In this document: one piece after another, positions 821 to 20,942 of the stretch
How the letters are laid out: the number at the start of each line of letters is the position of its first letter
Numbering within the stretch: the stretch's first letter is position 1
From: a virus
Reading direction: 5' to 3' (one strand)
Length of the DNA: 20,942 bases
IMG/VR virus record: IMGVR_UViG_3300042868_001044
Coordinates: 1 to 20,942 of that record
Position numbers and translations under genes: made by a program
The notes under the pieces: generated by a model
The model's input: the letters and a program-made list of their open reading frames with translations, nothing else
The model's database searches: none
What the model was told of the DNA's origin: nothing

Positions 821-3664
821 TTACTGAATTCGCACAACAGGTGCGCCGCTAGTTCCTGGCATTGAATCTTGCTGGCCTTGCGTTACCGCTGCTTGAGTTC
901 CAGCCGCCTGCATCAATGCTGGCTTTGAACCTTCAAGCCGATCAGAAAGTTTAGTCAGAATGTTAGCTTCTTCCTTGCTTCCTGACTTTGTTTTCGCAAG
1001 CATCGCCATCAAGTTGCGGACTGGCTTGCTTTCATAAGCGCGAACCGCTCCGGTGAAAGCCGCAGCCAACGCCGTGCCAACGCCACCTGTTTGCAGAAAA
1101 TCTCCAAGCCCCAGAGCGCCAAGCAGTAACGGAAAGTTTTCCTGTCCCGTTTGAGTCTTGACGCCAGCACCAGAAGCGCGGCGAGTGGCATTCAGGACGC
1201 GAACCAGGCCTTTGATTTCCTCCTGCTGTGACTTGCCGAAAAATACGCCAAGCTGATCCGCACGCTTGTTAATTTGCGTGATGAATTTTTCTGCACTGAC
1301 AGCGCCGCCCTCAACGCCCATATCTTTCGCAATACGATTGACGATTGCCATACGAGCTAGAGATTGGCCTTCAGGAGTTAGCGACTTATAGAGCGCAGAA
1401 ACATCGCTCTTTTTGCCGCTGAACAGCATATTGTTAATGACTTCAGGCGTTGCTTCACCGTTGCGTATTATGCTCTTGAGAGCATTACGATTGGCTTCCT
1501 GAATGCTATCACTCAAACGTGCGTCAGAAATGCGCCACTTATTATAGTTGGTGCGTCCGCCACGATCTAAGATGAAGCTTCCCATGTCATCTTTGAATGG
1601 GCCGTAAAGGTTTTTGACAGCAGCTTTCACGCGATCAGATGCACCAACCGACAAAGCCTCGTCCTGCCAAGCCTTGCCCAAAACATCACGGCGGAAAGCT
1701 TCCATTGCTTCGATGTCTCGTCCAGCAGCTTGCCCACGAATCTCTTGCAACTTAGCAATAGCTTCGTCTGCGGCGGGTGTACGAGCCTTGGATAGGTCTG
1801 CGATTTGATCGTCAATAGCCTTGACAGTCTTATCAACAGCGACTTCCCCAGCGCCAGCAAGTCCAGAGAAAACATCACGCTTCAAGGTGGTATATTTTTC
1901 AACAACGTCGCCGCGCTTGCGAAGAACATCAGAAACAATACGATCTTCTACGTCAGCCGGAATAGCGCCTGCATTTTCAATAATGAAGTCTTTTACCGCT
2001 ACTTCACGGGCTTCCTGTTGAGTTGCGCGTGCGCCACCAGTTCCAACAATAGGAATACGCTCACCGATTGTTTGAGCAGCCTTGCCCATAAACGTTTCAG
2101 GTGGACGAATGTCCGATGTCATAACTGGAATGCCAGTGCGCTCCCCTGCCGCAATGATTTCCCGTGGCGCAGCTGGTGCGATAAGTTCTTCTGTAACGCG
2201 AGATACAGGCGCAGCAGGAGCAGCTGGTGCAGTTGGTGTTGCCAAAGGAACTTCAGGGCCACCGCGCACACCACGCACCGATGAAACAATTGCAGGAATG
2301 GCTTGCTCAAGCAACTTACCAGCACCGCCAGCACCGCCAGCAATGGCAATTTCTGTAGTGTCTAATTGCCCACCAGCTCCGGCTTGAGTTGCTTCGATAC
2401 CAGTTTGAGTAAGCGCAGAGCGACCAGCAGCGCTAGTAACAGTGGCAGCGCGACCAGCAGGTGTGAAGGCAAGGATGCCACCAATCGCACGCGGAACATC
2501 GCTCCAGCGGAAACCTGGCTTAATGCCATATTCCTGCCCATCTTGTGAACGAAGTATGTAGTTGCCTTTTTCATCTTGACGCACTTGAACGCCAGGATAG
2601 TTTGACTTAATGATCTGCACCGATTCTTCGGGGCTTGTGAACATTGTACCAATACCTGTACGCGCACCAGCAATGGATAGCTCGTTTAATTCAGGCATCG
2701 TTGTCCAGTCAGCGACAGCCTCAATCTCTGGCGTGCTGCGATCTGAGCCAGTTACAGTTTCGACAATGCCTTCAAAGAATCCGGTTTCTTCAGGTGCAGC
2801 GCCCTCTGCGGGTGGAAGAATCCGTGCGCCAAAATTGCCAGCATTACGGAATTCAATAGCTTTCTGAAGGTCTTCTTGATTAGGCGTAATGCCTAGAGTG
2901 CCAGCAAGCGCGTTTAGTTCTTCAATGGTAGCGCCTCTATTGAAGGCTTCTTGAAGCTGAGTTGCTTTGTCTGGGGAAGTCGCCATTTCATACGGAGTGG
3001 CAAGAGTGATGCCCTGCTTTTCAGGGTCTGCGCCTTGGTCGGCCATCAACCCACGATAGGTTTCCGCCAAAGAGTTATAGCCTTGAAGCCTCTGGTTGTA
3101 GATAGAGCGTGCAACGTCAGCCATGTCTTTACGCTGCGCTTCAGATAATCCTTCTCCAGAAATTAGCTGGTTATAAGCGTTGCGGAAACGATCTGGTACG
3201 CCAGCCGCATTTTGCACAGAAGCTGCTTCGCCCTCACGAACAGTAGAGCCTGGGTCTAGAATCTTCATCAAAGAAAAGACCGAACCAATGTTCCCGATTG
3301 GAGTGCCCTTGCTTGTCAAATCAATAATTTGACGGGTGGCGTTTTGAACCTGACGGAATTCCTTAACTTCTGGAATGCCTAAAAATTCTGTTCGCAATGA
3401 ACCAATGCGGGAAAAGCCTTTTTCTTCTATGTCGCGCTTTTCTCCACGGGCAGCGCGATCTGCTGCTTCCTGAGCAAGGCGAGCACTTTCTTGTTCTCGT
3501 GTTTCACCAGCAGCAGCACGCTGTTCAGTAGCACGACGAGCAGCAGCAGCCTCTGGCGATTCACCTCCGATGATAGGGCGAATAGTCCTAATAGGAACGC
3601 TAGTTGCGGCTGGCTTGTAGCTGCCAAACTCTTTTTCAAATGCTGCATCATCAGGAGTCGCCAT
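821..3664 (-). CDS. Large internal virion / DNA-ejection protein (gp16 position)
   Basis: This 947-residue protein sits where P22 encodes gp16, just before the tailspike, and is probably carried in the virion and ejected with the DNA. Residues 35-82 are Ala/Glu/Arg-rich and likely coiled coil. Residues 95-220 carry a module common in podovirus structural proteins, with MKILDPGSTVREGE at 133-146. A second recognisable module spans about 343-400, with SPEESVQIIKSNYPG and AFTPAGRAA. A Gly/Ala-rich hydrophobic stretch at about 395-460 could touch membrane. A Pro/Ala linker follows near 470-500, and the rest is mostly helical. I chose the ATG at 3664, one base after the stop of the peptidase frame; in-frame GTG 3685 and ATG 3676 are alternatives. 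No catalytic motif is visible. It is much longer than P22 gp16 (about 609 residues), so one-to-one homology is not claimed. Role from position and modules. Confidence 0.75.
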   Translation of the reverse strand: MATPDDAAFEKEFGSYKPAATSVPIRTIRPIIGGESPEAAAARRATEQRAAAGETREQESARLAQEAADRAARGEKRDIEEKGFSRIGSLRTEFLGIPEVKEFRQVQNATRQIIDLTSKGTPIGNIGSVFSLMKILDPGSTVREGEAASVQNAAGVPDRFRNAYNQLISGEGLSEAQRKDMADVARSIYNQRLQGYNSLAETYRGLMADQGADPEKQGITLATPYEMATSPDKATQLQEAFNRGATIEELNALAGTLGITPNQEDLQKAIEFRNAGNFGARILPPAEGAAPEETGFFEGIVETVTGSDRSTPEIEAVADWTTMPELNELSIAGARTGIGTMFTSPEESVQIIKSNYPGVQVRQDEKGNYILRSQDGQEYGIKPGFRWSDVPRAIGGILAFTPAGRAATVTSAAGRSALTQTGIEATQAGAGGQLDTTEIAIAGGAGGAGKLLEQAIPAIVSSVRGVRGGPEVPLATPTAPAAPAAPVSRVTEELIAPAAPREIIAAGERTGIPVMTSDIRPPETFMGKAAQTIGERIPIVGTGGARATQQEAREVAVKDFIIENAGAIPADVEDRIVSDVLRKRGDVVEKYTTLKRDVFSGLAGAGEVAVDKTVKAIDDQIADLSKARTPAADEAIAKLQEIRGQAAGRDIEAMEAFRRDVLGKAWQDEALSVGASDRVKAAVKNLYGPFKDDMGSFILDRGGRTNYNKWRISDARLSDSIQEANRNALKSIIRNGEATPEVINNMLFSGKKSDVSALYKSLTPEGQSLARMAIVNRIAKDMGVEGGAVSAEKFITQINKRADQLGVFFGKSQQEEIKGLVRVLNATRRASGAGVKTQTGQENFPLLLGALGLGDFLQTGGVGTALAAAFTGAVRAYESKPVRNLMAMLAKTKSGSKEEANILTKLSDRLEGSKPALMQAAGTQAAVTQGQQDSMPGTSGAPVVRIQ

Positions 3665-3665
3665 A

Positions 3666-4088
3666 TTAATCACCATATCTTTCACGAGAACGACTTACGT
3701 CCGGAGCCTTGCCCCAGCCAGGGAATGTTATATGCAATGCACCTTTGTTACTAGCAGCAACGCGAGTGCCTGGGTATGTTTGTTTTACCAAAGCTATAGC
3801 TTCAGAAACTTTCATTCCTTTGGGTGGCATAAAATCTAATGCGTCACCTTTTGGATGCGATCCGCGAGCAGTTGTTGTCATTCCCTGCCTTACTAGAGCC
3901 TGCTGATGCTTCTCAGTTCTAAACCCACTTGTAGGAGTAAATCCAAGAGCGCCCAAATCCTTCAATGGATTAATGTCACTGTCCTTGAAAGTTACCAGAC
4001 GAAGTAGACGTCTGACCTCCAGTCCCCATAACCTTTGCCGCACTGCCAGGGCCAAAAATGCTATCAAACTTCGCGGGTGTAACTGCAC
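3666..4088 (-). CDS. M15-type zinc peptidase domain (D-Ala-D-Ala carboxypeptidase-like)
   Basis: The frame encodes a compact M15/VanY-like metallopeptidase, a family that cuts peptidoglycan cross-links. Numbering from the GTG at 4088, it shows SGFRTEKHQQAL at 54-65, the zinc motif SHPKGDALDF at 77-86 (H78 and D85) and a second zinc histidine in ALHITF (H119). The domain begins only near residue 40. Residues 1-34 overlap the preceding gene by 113 bases and look like out-of-frame translation (Leu/Arg-rich, no domain). After the overlap no ATG or GTG precedes the domain; only a poorly placed TTG (PL-KDLGALGF) exists. The true product may therefore be a frameshift extension of the upstream ejection protein, adding 106 residues. 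In either form it would suit local wall digestion during DNA entry, or lysis, since no other endolysin is in view. The domain call is firm; the start is not. Confidence 0.75.
   Translation of the reverse strand: MQLHPRSLIAFLALAVRQRLWGLEVRRLLRLVTFKDSDINPLKDLGALGFTPTSGFRTEKHQQALVRQGMTTTARGSHPKGDALDFMPPKGMKVSEAIALVKQTYPGTRVAASNKGALHITFPGWGKAPDVSRSRERYGD
3976..3990 (-). other. Candidate +1 frameshift site (UUU-C) before the ejection-protein stop
   Basis: Near the end of the ejection-protein gene, codons AAC UUU CAA GGA CAG are followed by UGA at 3976-3978. If tRNA-Phe on UUU (3988-3990) slips one base to UUC, reading continues as AAG GAC AGU GAC into the M15 peptidase frame. The fused product would be 260 + 106 = 366 residues. 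UUU followed by C is a known +1 slip context, as in influenza PA-X. A GGAGGU sequence lies about 26-31 bases upstream and could act as an internal stimulator, or be chance. A sequencing error or a true separate start are the alternatives. Confidence 0.4.
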
Positions 4089-4767
4089 CAGCCTTTAATT
4101 TAGACACTGCTGCCTCTGGAATAATTGGCTTTACATTTACATCTGGATTTCCGGTTCTTTCTGCTTCTGCCACAGCACGTTCAATGTCTGACTTCAGAAC
4201 AATACCAATCCCAGACACATTTTCATAAGGCTCAGTCTGTTTAAATGCCTTATCATATATTTTTGCGCCTTCATCATCCTGAGCAAGCACGGTGACGATT
4301 GCAGATTCCTGAAGCTTTGGATTATCACTGTATAATTGATAGCCCGCCTTCATGTCCTGAAGCCTCTTTTGAAGATTCGGATTTTCTTTTGCCGCTTCAA
4401 TGCGCTGATCTAGAATAGAAAGCACTTGCTCAGGCTTCTTATTTCTATGCGCCATTAAAGCATCGACCGACACGTTTCGAATAGCTGGACGATCAATATC
4501 TTCTACAGCCTTTTGTACGCCAGCAAGCGCCGTAAACTCGCTGGGATATTTAGATGTTAATTGACGGAATCCTTCAGGAGTTGGGTTATTTACCCAAGAC
4601 GCAACATCACCTTGAAACTGCTTCTGCAATGCAAATTCGTCACGCTTTAGCCTTGCCATATCACGTTGGGCTTCAGCTTGCTGTTGTTGCTGCCCTAATT
4701 GTATGGACTTAAAGAAGGTCTCACTAGGAGATGGAGTTTTGAGTGTATAATCATAAGGCTGAACCAT
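3976..4767 (-). CDS. Putative DNA-ejection protein (gp20 position)
   Basis: This 263-residue protein is mostly helical and charged, with a Gln-rich stretch at about 25-31 (LGQQQQQAEAQ) continuing into a likely coiled coil to about residue 50. The C-terminal tail (about 245-263) is Gly/Ser/Thr-rich and low complexity, like a linker. The N-terminus (VQPYDYTLKTPSPSETF) resembles starts seen in podovirus ejection proteins. It lies between the gp7-like and gp16-position genes, where P22 encodes gp20. The ATG at 4767 follows the upstream stop by 8 bases and has GAGGT 5 bases upstream, a good ribosome-binding site. No enzyme motif is seen. The linker-like end, immediately followed out of frame by a peptidase domain, is odd and suggests the two may form one product. 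Function is inferred from position and composition. Confidence 0.6.
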   Translation of the reverse strand: MVQPYDYTLKTPSPSETFFKSIQLGQQQQQAEAQRDMARLKRDEFALQKQFQGDVASWVNNPTPEGFRQLTSKYPSEFTALAGVQKAVEDIDRPAIRNVSVDALMAHRNKKPEQVLSILDQRIEAAKENPNLQKRLQDMKAGYQLYSDNPKLQESAIVTVLAQDDEGAKIYDKAFKQTEPYENVSGIGIVLKSDIERAVAEAERTGNPDVNVKPIIPEAAVSKLKAGAVTPAKFDSIFGPGSAAKVMGTGGQTSTSSGNFQGQ

Positions 4768-4775
4768 AAGTTACC

Positions 4776-5402
4776 TCAATATCCTCTGCCGATTGCCAAG
4801 CCAGCGAACTGTGCTGGTAGATTTAGTGATTGCTGCCAAGCGCTAGCAGCGCCTAGTTTTGCGCCAGCCCGTGCTGCTCCACCTTGAGCTAGGAGGTCTG
4901 CAATAGAACCAGCCGATTGCATACCAGCCGTTCCTACGCCAGCAGCCGATTGCTGACCAAGAGATGTCAATCCACCTAAGCGACCATACTGTTGCTCAAG
5001 GAACTGATTGAGCAATGCGGGGCGAAACTGCGCTAATGCGCCTTGAACGTTGCCGCCACGAAGCCCACCAGTTGCCGATGCGTTCTGTAAAAGAGCTTCC
5101 TCTTGCTGCCGCGCCAAAGCTTGAAACGCTGGGCTTTGCTCTTGGCCTGCAACATATTCTTGTTGCGCCTCTGGGCCAGCAAGTCCTAATGCCGCCATCT
5201 GTGCTTGAAGGGCAGGGCCACCCGCAGCTACATACGGCTGCAACAAGCCACGCATTTCTTCACGAGCAGCCCTTGTTTCAGCGACGCCAGCTTGACTAGC
5301 ATCATACTGAAGCTGGCCAGCGCTCTTTGCGGCTTTAGCACCCATGGCACTGCCTGCTAGAGAAGTGCCGCCTACAACAAGCGCTGTTACTGGATCAGGC
5401 AT
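4776..5402 (-). CDS. gp7-like DNA-ejection protein, Ala/Gly-rich
   Basis: The 208-residue product is rich in Ala, Gly and Gln and has the look of P22 gp7-type DNA-transfer proteins, which leave the virion during infection and help form the channel through the cell envelope. The first 22 residues (PDPVTALVVGGTSLAGSAMG) are hydrophobic and glycine-zippered, like a membrane-inserting or processed N-terminus. A helical, charged middle follows. The C-terminal half has the family-typical GGLRGGNVQGALAQF (about 112-126), then NQFLEQQYGRLGGLTSLGQQ and AGMQSAGSIADLLAQGG, again small-residue rich. Its ATG at 5402 lies 8 bases inside the end of the upstream gene, so translation is probably coupled. P22 places gp7 directly before gp20, as here. 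Family assignment rests on composition, motifs and order, not an alignment. Confidence 0.7.
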   Translation of the reverse strand: MPDPVTALVVGGTSLAGSAMGAKAAKSAGQLQYDASQAGVAETRAAREEMRGLLQPYVAAGGPALQAQMAALGLAGPEAQQEYVAGQEQSPAFQALARQQEEALLQNASATGGLRGGNVQGALAQFRPALLNQFLEQQYGRLGGLTSLGQQSAAGVGTAGMQSAGSIADLLAQGGAARAGAKLGAASAWQQSLNLPAQFAGLAIGRGY

Positions 5403-19729: not shown

Positions 19730-19940
19730 CATCTTCCTCCTCGTCGTAATCAAACGGATCATAACCCTTTAGCATTGCATCTACTGCAACCATGATAGGC
19801 CCAGTGATACGCACCTTGCCAGCTTCCATCTTGCGAATGGTTGTGCCGCCATTGTCAGGCGATAGGCGGAGAGCGTCCGCCATCTCGTTTACGCTATAGC
19901 CCATGTAGGCTCTAGCTAGTTTAAGCTTTGCTGGCGTCAT
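19716..19940 (-). CDS. Small XRE-type helix-turn-helix protein
   Basis: The 74-residue protein is a single helix-turn-helix unit: LKLARAYMGYSVNEMADALR at 6-25, the recognition region DNGGTTIRKMEAGKV, then ITGPIMVAVDAMLKGYDP. The remainder is an acidic tail (EEEDDGE). The layout is that of XRE/Cro-like DNA-binding proteins. The start is ATG at 19940, in an ATGA overlap with the preceding gene's stop and with GGAG 8 bases upstream; the frame stays open to 19967 but the extension would lie inside the neighbour. It may regulate phage transcription, but operators are not seen here. The acidic tail and lack of divergent transcription make a repressor role uncertain. Confidence 0.8.
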   Translation of the reverse strand: MTPAKLKLARAYMGYSVNEMADALRLSPDNGGTTIRKMEAGKVRITGPIMVAVDAMLKGYDPFDYDEEEDDGEY

Positions 19941-20821
19941 GGCGCTTCTCCACACCAAAGTCCACACTCAGCATCCATGTCTGGGTCTTCATTAAAAAAT
20001 CCTTTAAATAAATCTCCCTGATTACGAGCAGCATCAATTAACTGATTATATCCGTATCCAGAGCGAAACGTTGCCGCGCTTTGTTTTGAACAAATATCGC
20101 TGGCAAAGCTTTCCATGTCGGCCCACCATTTCAAAGTACCTGGCTGCGTCCGCTCAATCTCCATTAACTTTGGACGCGCCTTTAAAAAGCAGCCATCGCA
20201 ATTTCCCTCGAATGGCAGCAACTGCAAGTCAAAATCTTGCTCTGCCCACCAAGTGCGAACATCTCGCTGCGTAACTCCATCTTCAAATAAGGGGAAAACG
20301 GAAACCCAAGGGTCTTTACCTTTTTCGTTAGCAGATGCTCCACGAGATACACGGTGGCCTTCGTCTGCCCTAAGCCCAACCACGTTAGTCCATTTTTTAT
20401 ATCCCTTGGACTTCATAAAAAACTTCATGGGTTCGATTTTTAATTCTGTAGTGCAAAAGCGCATCACGCTGTTTGGTAGATATTTCTTGCGCTCAATCAA
20501 AGCACGGAATGGCTCTCCGTTTCGGCTGGCACTGTTGTAACCAATTTCAACAAACCGATCCTCATAGCTTTTGGCTTTCCGATCTGATTGCTCTAGCCAA
20601 TGAATATTAATTCCCCAGCGGCTTTGACACTCATGCACAAAGCGCAATGTTTCTTCGCGCTCTTTGCCTGTGTTGGCAAAAGTCACATGAACATCATCTG
20701 GTAACACTCCTCCATGTGCGTCAAGGATATGCTTGAGCATATATCCAGATGTTCTACCACCACTGAATGATATGAGTGCTGGCCCATGAATGAGGTAAGG
20801 ATTGACCTTTTCCTCCGTCAT
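19937..20821 (-). CDS. Phage PAPS-reductase-like (PP-loop) protein
   Basis: The 294-residue protein belongs to the PAPS reductase / adenine nucleotide alpha-hydrolase superfamily. The PP-loop is SFSGGRTSG at 18-26, followed by VTFANTGKEREETLRFV at 46-62, RFCTTELKIEPMKFF at 121-135 and VVGLRADEGHRVSR at 147-160. Extra cysteines (C123, C208-x2-C211 in GNCDGCFLK, C244, C286, C290) could hold an iron-sulphur cluster. Phage members are common near early and packaging genes; their substrate is unknown, and links to sulphur metabolism or DNA modification are speculative. The frame is open to 20938 but the start is the ATG at 20821: residues before it overlap a real gene in another frame. Start and upstream stop overlap as ATGA. 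It overlaps the next gene in the same way. Confidence 0.85.
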   Translation of the reverse strand: MTEEKVNPYLIHGPALISFSGGRTSGYMLKHILDAHGGVLPDDVHVTFANTGKEREETLRFVHECQSRWGINIHWLEQSDRKAKSYEDRFVEIGYNSASRNGEPFRALIERKKYLPNSVMRFCTTELKIEPMKFFMKSKGYKKWTNVVGLRADEGHRVSRGASANEKGKDPWVSVFPLFEDGVTQRDVRTWWAEQDFDLQLLPFEGNCDGCFLKARPKLMEIERTQPGTLKWWADMESFASDICSKQSAATFRSGYGYNQLIDAARNQGDLFKGFFNEDPDMDAECGLWCGEAP

Positions 20822-20942
20822 GCTTCTTCCATCTCTGCTGCCGCTGCCATCTTCTGCAGTGAGTGAACAATGGTGCTGTGATCGCGGTTCATAATTCTTC
20901 CAATCTCTGTGGTTGAATAGCCCTTGCCTCTCATCCACACAA
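20818..20942 (-). CDS. C-terminus of a DnaA domain IV-like DNA-binding protein (partial)
   Basis: Reading from the window edge to TGA at 20818-20820 gives 40 codons. The peptide RGKGYSTTEIGRIMN then RDHSTIVHSLQKM fits the DnaA signature (I-G-x2-hydrophobic-N-R-x-H-S-T-I-V-x-S-x2-K-M). In DnaA this helix-turn-helix reads DnaA boxes. The stop overlaps the ATG of the PAPS-reductase-like gene. The N-terminal part is outside, so it may be a full DnaA-like ATPase or, more often in phages, a small protein with only this domain. A frame shifted by one base also reads through this region; the match to the signature decides which is real. Confidence 0.7.
   Translation of the reverse strand, partial: VWMRGKGYSTTEIGRIMNRDHSTIVHSLQKMAAAAEMEEA

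Follow-up and report, generated by a model that had tools for sequence, protein, structure and literature searches.

The ejection-protein gene on the minus strand of a viral record from IMG/VR (IMGVR_UViG_3300042868_001044, positions 1 to 20,942; this whole 20,942-nucleotide stretch is called the window here) probably ends in a programmed +1 ribosomal frameshift site. From comparison of this junction with its relatives, the probability is about 0.9 that such a site gives an ejection protein both with and without a wall-cutting domain. The zero-frame open reading frame (ORF) ends ...GGA GGT CAG ACG TCT ACT TCG TCT GGT AAC TTT CAA GGA CAG TGA (C-terminus ...SGNFQGQ), and the +1 frame from TTT C reads FKDSDINP...RYGD up to a TAA stop codon. 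The two predicted products differ on the C-terminal side of the slip: ...GGQTSTSSGNFK for the frameshifted protein versus ...GGQTSTSSGNFQGQ for the zero-frame end. A preliminary description of the window had proposed that the ejection protein and an M15 peptidase may be one frameshifted product, and comparison with relatives supports this reading. The continuation of the M15 domain in the +1 frame where the ejection ORF ends was reproduced in frames and coordinates, the fusion again comes to 366 amino acids (aa) on recomputation, and UUU-C is present just before the zero-frame UGA. As described, no ATG or GTG lies between that UGA and the domain, and the sole upstream starts give a shadow sequence. 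A GGAGG motif and a hairpin just 5' of the slip site (4020-3995) were absent from that description and were found here.

Frame and signal at the junctions

Viral contigs were searched with the ejection protein, the M15 domain and a second hydrolase found downstream of related junctions, which gave 82 distinct junctions whose domain could be read together with the upstream DNA. These junctions were collected without any DNA pattern, so the signal itself played no part in their selection. The domain lies in the +1 frame, with the upstream ORF stopping soon after UUU, in 81 of the 82 junctions. The signal at these sites consists, in order, of GGAGG, one base, a hairpin of 7-8 bp, five bases, UUU and a pyrimidine (Y). 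All 81 +1 junctions contain UUU-Y and GGAGG (one as GGGGG), and the stem forms seven of seven pairs in 80 of them and six of seven in the other. The check suggested in the preliminary description, whether UUU-C is conserved in relatives, gave UUU-Y in 81/82 junctions, and the related question of whether the two parts form one protein elsewhere is answered by the shared +1 offset together with natural in-frame fusions. At the 82nd junction (L254; L255 has the same sequence), the domain is encoded in frame within an 881-aa protein and the signal is absent.

When all searches were pooled, 168 junctions were obtained: 161 in the +1 frame, seven in-frame and none in the -1 frame, which rules out a -1 shift (0/168). 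The architecture is nearly rigid. In 114 junctions, GGAGG or GGGGG and UUU followed by C or U are found without exception (114/114 for each), the zero-frame stop always lies 1-16 codons past UUU (114/114), and, with few exceptions, one base separates GGAGG from the stem and five bases separate the stem from UUU; loops are mostly of 5 or 8 bases. The slip codon is followed by CGC in 36/114. A stop codon stands directly after UUU in only 5/114 (three UGA, two UAA), so a stop in the A site was ruled out as the cause of the shift.

The stem is maintained by compensated changes. Across 45 relatives, A-U pairs are replaced by U-A, G-C or C-G, and G-C pairs by U-A or C-G. Cells of this comparison with changes on both sides of the stem number 24, against 4.6 in shuffles, and none of 500 shuffles reached 24. 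Since G-U pairs also occur in the stem, a structure in RNA is favored over a DNA palindrome. The linker peptides encoded across the stem vary (GGQTATPSGNF, GGQTSTTQSGNF, GGPASSAPGQF, GGSGGNVTGGF and others), and because the linker changes along with the stem, constraint on the protein does not explain the pairing. Searches of viral contigs with stem patterns agree: the original had more than 119 matches and two matched variants had 46 and 13, whereas a variant with one mismatched pair had 0 matches in the same contigs.

Selection on the +1-frame protein is also apparent in the subtype to which the window belongs (54 junctions). The DNA 5' of GGAGG is nearly unalignable (diversity about 0.65), and conservation starts at GGAGG. 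Downstream of the slip site, diversity averages 0.20, 0.17 and 0.51 at the first, second and third positions of the +1 codons, a pattern from which it follows that the +1-frame protein is selected from the slip codon on.

Some pattern matches were discarded. Three (L117, L152 and L157) were set aside as false, and 10 of 11 DNA-pattern matches in genome contigs look like chance by their ORF context. A DNA-pattern search of 399 genomes of one phylum returned nothing besides an already known prophage. Separately, two contigs each carry two differing cassettes about 34-37 kb apart (IMGVR_UViG_3300042314_000177, with L278 and L281; IMGVR_UViG_3300035670_000305, with L083 and L085); this spacing of one phage-genome length suggests tandem prophages or chimeric assembly.

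Exchangeable domains and cultured phages

The same signal is common to several unrelated ejection proteins and precedes three unrelated groups of domains. At the 168 pooled junctions, 128 domains are M15-like, 29 are SLT-type transglycosylases and nine are of an NNPG type, to which virion hydrolases of other phages are related. Upstream, the N-terminal parts sort into five clusters, of which three are large. No domain group is confined to a single upstream cluster, and two of the large clusters each occur with at least two domain groups.

The domain of the window belongs to the M15-like group. Its putative zinc ligands (His-x6-Asp ... His; H45, D52 and H86 of the domain, which the preliminary description had numbered H78, D85 and H119 in a 140-aa ORF) are invariant in 33 aligned sequences. 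A Pfam search with this domain matched no family, and several of the other +1 domains match Peptidase_M15_3 or SLT above the cut-off. The AlphaFold2 model is confident, with a predicted local distance difference test score (pLDDT) of 93, and its best matches in the PDB are the M15 peptidases LysECD7 and ChiX (E 0.006-0.008, probability 1.00, template modelling score about 0.5).

Further evidence comes from the seven junctions where the domain is encoded in the zero frame. All seven retain GGAGG, the hairpin and UUU-Y, and in all of them it is the +1 frame that stops within four codons (at the very next codon in L294 and L320). Early +1 stops have a baseline of 9-19% per site, and multiplying over the five less related cases gives about 6e-5. 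The simple reading of these sequences is that the site would still shift, and that a short and a long product are both wanted whichever frame encodes the enzyme. Fusions in-frame and without the signal also exist, in L254 and in Sphingopyxis phage VSN-002, and Caulobacter phage SR18 has an SLT domain inside an ordinary long protein.

The signal is present in a cultured cyanophage. In Pseudanabaena phage Pam1, it reads GGAGGT CAGGCGG CTCCC CCGCCTG CTGGC TTTT; gp14, annotated as an injectosome translocase, ends a few codons past TTT, and a hydrolase follows in the +1 frame. The annotated 49-aa hypothetical protein Pam1_15 (ON014753.1, 11366-11515) is a fragment of this hydrolase. A covariance model recovers the Pam1 site even though Pam1 was absent from its training set. 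Among the tryptic peptides expected from Pam1, GGQAAPPPAGFR would mark the frameshift and GGQAAPPPAGFSDWL the zero-frame end; mass spectrometry has already been used to identify the structural proteins of this phage (PMC9382816). Bacterial genomes carry the signal as well: Sphingopyxis bauzanensis DSM 22271 and three further Sphingomonadales genomes have it with SLT or M15-type domains (loci L268 and L282-L284), with further compensated stems. In one of these loci, a Sphingomonadales prophage (L284, G265:C1), the +1 extension has about 100 extra residues ahead of its M15-type domain.

Proposed mechanism and alternatives

A ribosome translating the ejection gene would unwind the hairpin, and UUU would reach the P site. 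GGAGG could then pair with 16S rRNA, and the hairpin would refold five bases behind the P site, pushing the mRNA one base forward, so that tRNA-Phe (anticodon GAA) would re-pair from UUU to UUC or UUU. A fraction of ribosomes would read on in the +1 frame through the peptidoglycan-hydrolase domain, and the remaining ribosomes would mostly terminate 1-5 codons later. The result would be two forms of the ejection protein, with and without the wall-cutting domain, at a set ratio. In the window, GGAGG is 25 bases from UUU on the linear mRNA and about six only when the hairpin is folded; because folding brings the two this close, hairpin and Shine-Dalgarno pairing might act together.

In vitro, an upstream hairpin adjoining the E site makes 70S ribosomes shift +1 more often, with a smaller effect than that of an internal Shine-Dalgarno sequence (PMC6321510). 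At the prfB site, UUU reportedly belongs to the codons that slip best after CUU (PMC10885494), and a UUU-C slip is used by influenza PA-X (PMC3498833). Frame, signal, covariation, domain exchange and the conservation of two products are all read directly in the compared sequences; from them we infer that frameshifting occurs and with what efficiency, how the hairpin and GGAGG act, and that the product is located in the virion.

Several points weigh against the frameshift. An ordinary sense codon (CAA, CGC) usually occupies the A site, rather than a stop or a known hungry codon, so the pause would have to come from the hairpin and GGAGG alone. The hairpin effect in vitro required the absence of release factor 2 (RF2) and a stop in the A site (PMC6321510). 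The junctions are related by descent, and counting them does not count independent events. Searches by DNA pattern required UUU-Y, and an unbiased view of this feature comes only from the set found by protein similarity. The usual catalytic acid just ahead of the last His was not recognized in the M15 subtype of the window, so the domain's peptidoglycan-cleaving activity is presumed. Finally, the support for frameshifting comes from sequence comparison.

An internal start, by which the hydrolase would be a separate protein initiated at a non-AUG codon, is improbable. Its ribosome-binding site could be GGAGG, which the folded hairpin places about six bases from UUU, near the usual initiation spacing; alternatively it could be AAGG, as the window subtype has AAGGR seven bases ahead of an ATT, ATA or ATC codon. 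However, the ATT position and AAGGR are missing from the other domain families, start candidates with a Shine-Dalgarno-like sequence are scattered, and no start codon is conserved. In 18/114 junctions, the stretch between the upstream +1 stop and the 20th codon of the domain contains no ATG, GTG or TTG. The window domain contains two in-frame TTG codons, the first at a position that varies freely in relatives (ATA, ACA, ATT, GTG). No relative was found whose peptidase has a separate start codon with a ribosome-binding site; relatives of that kind are what the preliminary description had named as speaking against fusion. Separate initiation also leaves unexplained the zero-frame continuity, the natural in-frame fusions and the early +1 stops in those fusions. 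Termination-reinitiation at a UGAUG present in one subtype was ruled out, as its ATG is in the third frame and not in the hydrolase frame.

Slightly less probable again is that the inverted repeat serves as a DNA recombination point for exchange of C-terminal domains, with the frameshift incidental or a remnant. The signal does lie exactly where upstream and downstream parts are swapped, but a recombination point would not account for the almost fixed distance from stem to UUU, the invariant UUU-Y, the G-U pairs, the consistent +1 offset with no -1 case or the early +1 stops of the in-frame fusions. A role in recombination may exist in addition to frameshifting.

Two other explanations have negligible probability. 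A one-base deletion in a single contig, from assembly or sequencing, would look identical to the junction of the window, as the preliminary description had cautioned; this, chance and gene decay are refuted by the relatives, since more than 100 distinct junctions show an identical offset at this site and the +1 frame is under protein-level constraint, and the presence of the signal in cultured Pam1 and in bacterial genomes removes assembly error as an explanation. Slippage by RNA polymerase could produce a +1 mRNA and the same fusion, yet no more than three or four U residues are present at the site, with no long homopolymer, and slippage would have no need for a conserved GGAGG and hairpin at fixed spacing.

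Programmed ribosomal frameshifting of this kind can be compared with known systems. As in prfB, which encodes RF2 (Shine-Dalgarno and CUU UGA), the shift would be in the +1 direction, an internal Shine-Dalgarno sequence is present, and the P-site tRNA would slip onto an overlapping codon. Unlike the autoregulatory prfB site, which waits with UGA in the A site, the junctions described here usually have a sense codon there (the prfB-type UGA is not a feature of the window site), the slip codon is UUU, a conserved hairpin separates it from GGAGG, which lies about 25 bases upstream, and the gene encodes a virion-type protein. Influenza A PA-X (UCC_UUU_CGU; PMC3498833) shares the UUU-C slip by tRNA-Phe but uses a eukaryotic ribosome, whereas conserved GGAGG and an upstream hairpin are found here. 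Listeria phages PSA, A118 and A500 (CCC_U) also have +1 frameshifts in structural genes that extend proteins C-terminally; theirs involve a proline codon with a pseudoknot or stop downstream (PMC5009743) and no modular cassette common to several enzymes. Artificial upstream refolding hairpins by the E site likewise favor +1 (PMC6321510, PMC3639245), but these are designed reporters, of which the present signal, combined with GGAGG, would be a natural counterpart.

It is likely, with less assurance than for the shift itself, that these sites represent a natural class of +1 frameshifting that combines an internal Shine-Dalgarno sequence with a 5' refolding hairpin, and that they act as a modular phage cassette adding exchangeable hydrolases (M15, SLT, NNPG) to a set fraction of different ejection proteins, with the roles of the frames swapped in some lineages and both products kept. 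To our knowledge, upstream hairpins have been known as +1 stimulators only from designed constructs. A literature search that covered few subscription journals found no earlier description of this signal, and one may exist.

The locus and what the signal may mean

The minus strand of the window encodes a P22-type head and tail module: terminase, portal, coat, head-tail adaptor, head closure protein, a gene 7-like protein, the ejection ORF and a gene 16-like protein (Table 1). The ejection protein has 29 related loci in IMG/VR and had no match in a PHROG search; its counterparts in VSN-002 and Pam1 are annotated as injectosome translocases.

Table 1. Features of the junction and its neighbors in the window.
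Feature	Positions	Strand	Remarks
Zero-frame ORF, ejection-type protein, 263 aa	3976..4767	-	P22 gene 20 position, between gene 7-like and gene 16-like genes
GGAGG, internal Shine-Dalgarno-like element	4016..4020	-	Conserved at junctions of relatives
Hairpin 5' arm, UCAGACG	4009..4015	-	Fold -8.4 kcal/mol; covariation in 45 relatives
Hairpin 3' arm, CGUCUGG	3995..4001	-	Same fold and covariation; compensated variants across the collection
Putative slip site UUU-C (UUU 3990-3988, C 3987)	3987..3990	-	UUU-Y in all +1 junctions found by protein similarity
Zero-frame stop UGA	3976..3978	-	Four codons after start of UUU; likewise soon after UUU in relatives
+1-frame stretch, M15-like zinc peptidase domain, 107 aa and stop (3666-3668)	3666..3989	-	Codon-position variability, model, PDB matches
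Gene 16-like DNA transfer protein	821..3664	-	PHROG 770, E 7e-65; likely ATG 3664-3662
Gene 7-like DNA ejection protein	4776..5402	-	Pfam P22_gp7, below curated cut-off; PHROG 598, E 1e-26

The +1-frame stop of the window is one base ahead of the likely gene 16-like ATG, and in 105/106 loci the +1 stop lies within 17 bases of the start of the next large ORF. Through this near-contact (3662-3668 in the window), the share of shifted ribosomes may also set gene 16 translation by coupling. The ejection gene has a second in-frame UUU-C (UUUCAAGG; 4614-4617, minus strand) without GGAGG or a hairpin, which is a natural negative control for the slip codon alone. Beside the packaging genes, an ORF on the minus strand (19937-20938) has a PAPS-reductase-like motif (ISFSGGRTSGYML), judged from its translation.

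The periplasmic tunnel of podoviruses is built from ejection proteins, among which exchange of hydrolase domains is known (PMC8954989). In T7 gp16 and K1E gp15-like proteins, as here, a peptidoglycan hydrolase is attached to an ejection protein and exchanged between phages, but there it is an ordinary in-frame part (PMC8954989), whereas here recoding would place it on a fraction of the copies. The domain may open peptidoglycan at the point where the injection tunnel passes through the periplasm, and carrying it on some copies only would spare the other tunnel subunits a bulky domain. The findings suggest that podoviruses place a wall-cutting enzyme on only some ejection-protein copies, and recoding is seen here moving as a module. 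Gene finders miss or truncate such enzymes, as with the 49-aa protein of Pam1. According to a 2024 paper on frameshift prediction, a general motif for forward frameshifts had yet to be identified (PMC10885494); a compact natural signal of 36 bases, with covariation and present in a cultured phage, would make the question of such a motif directly testable.
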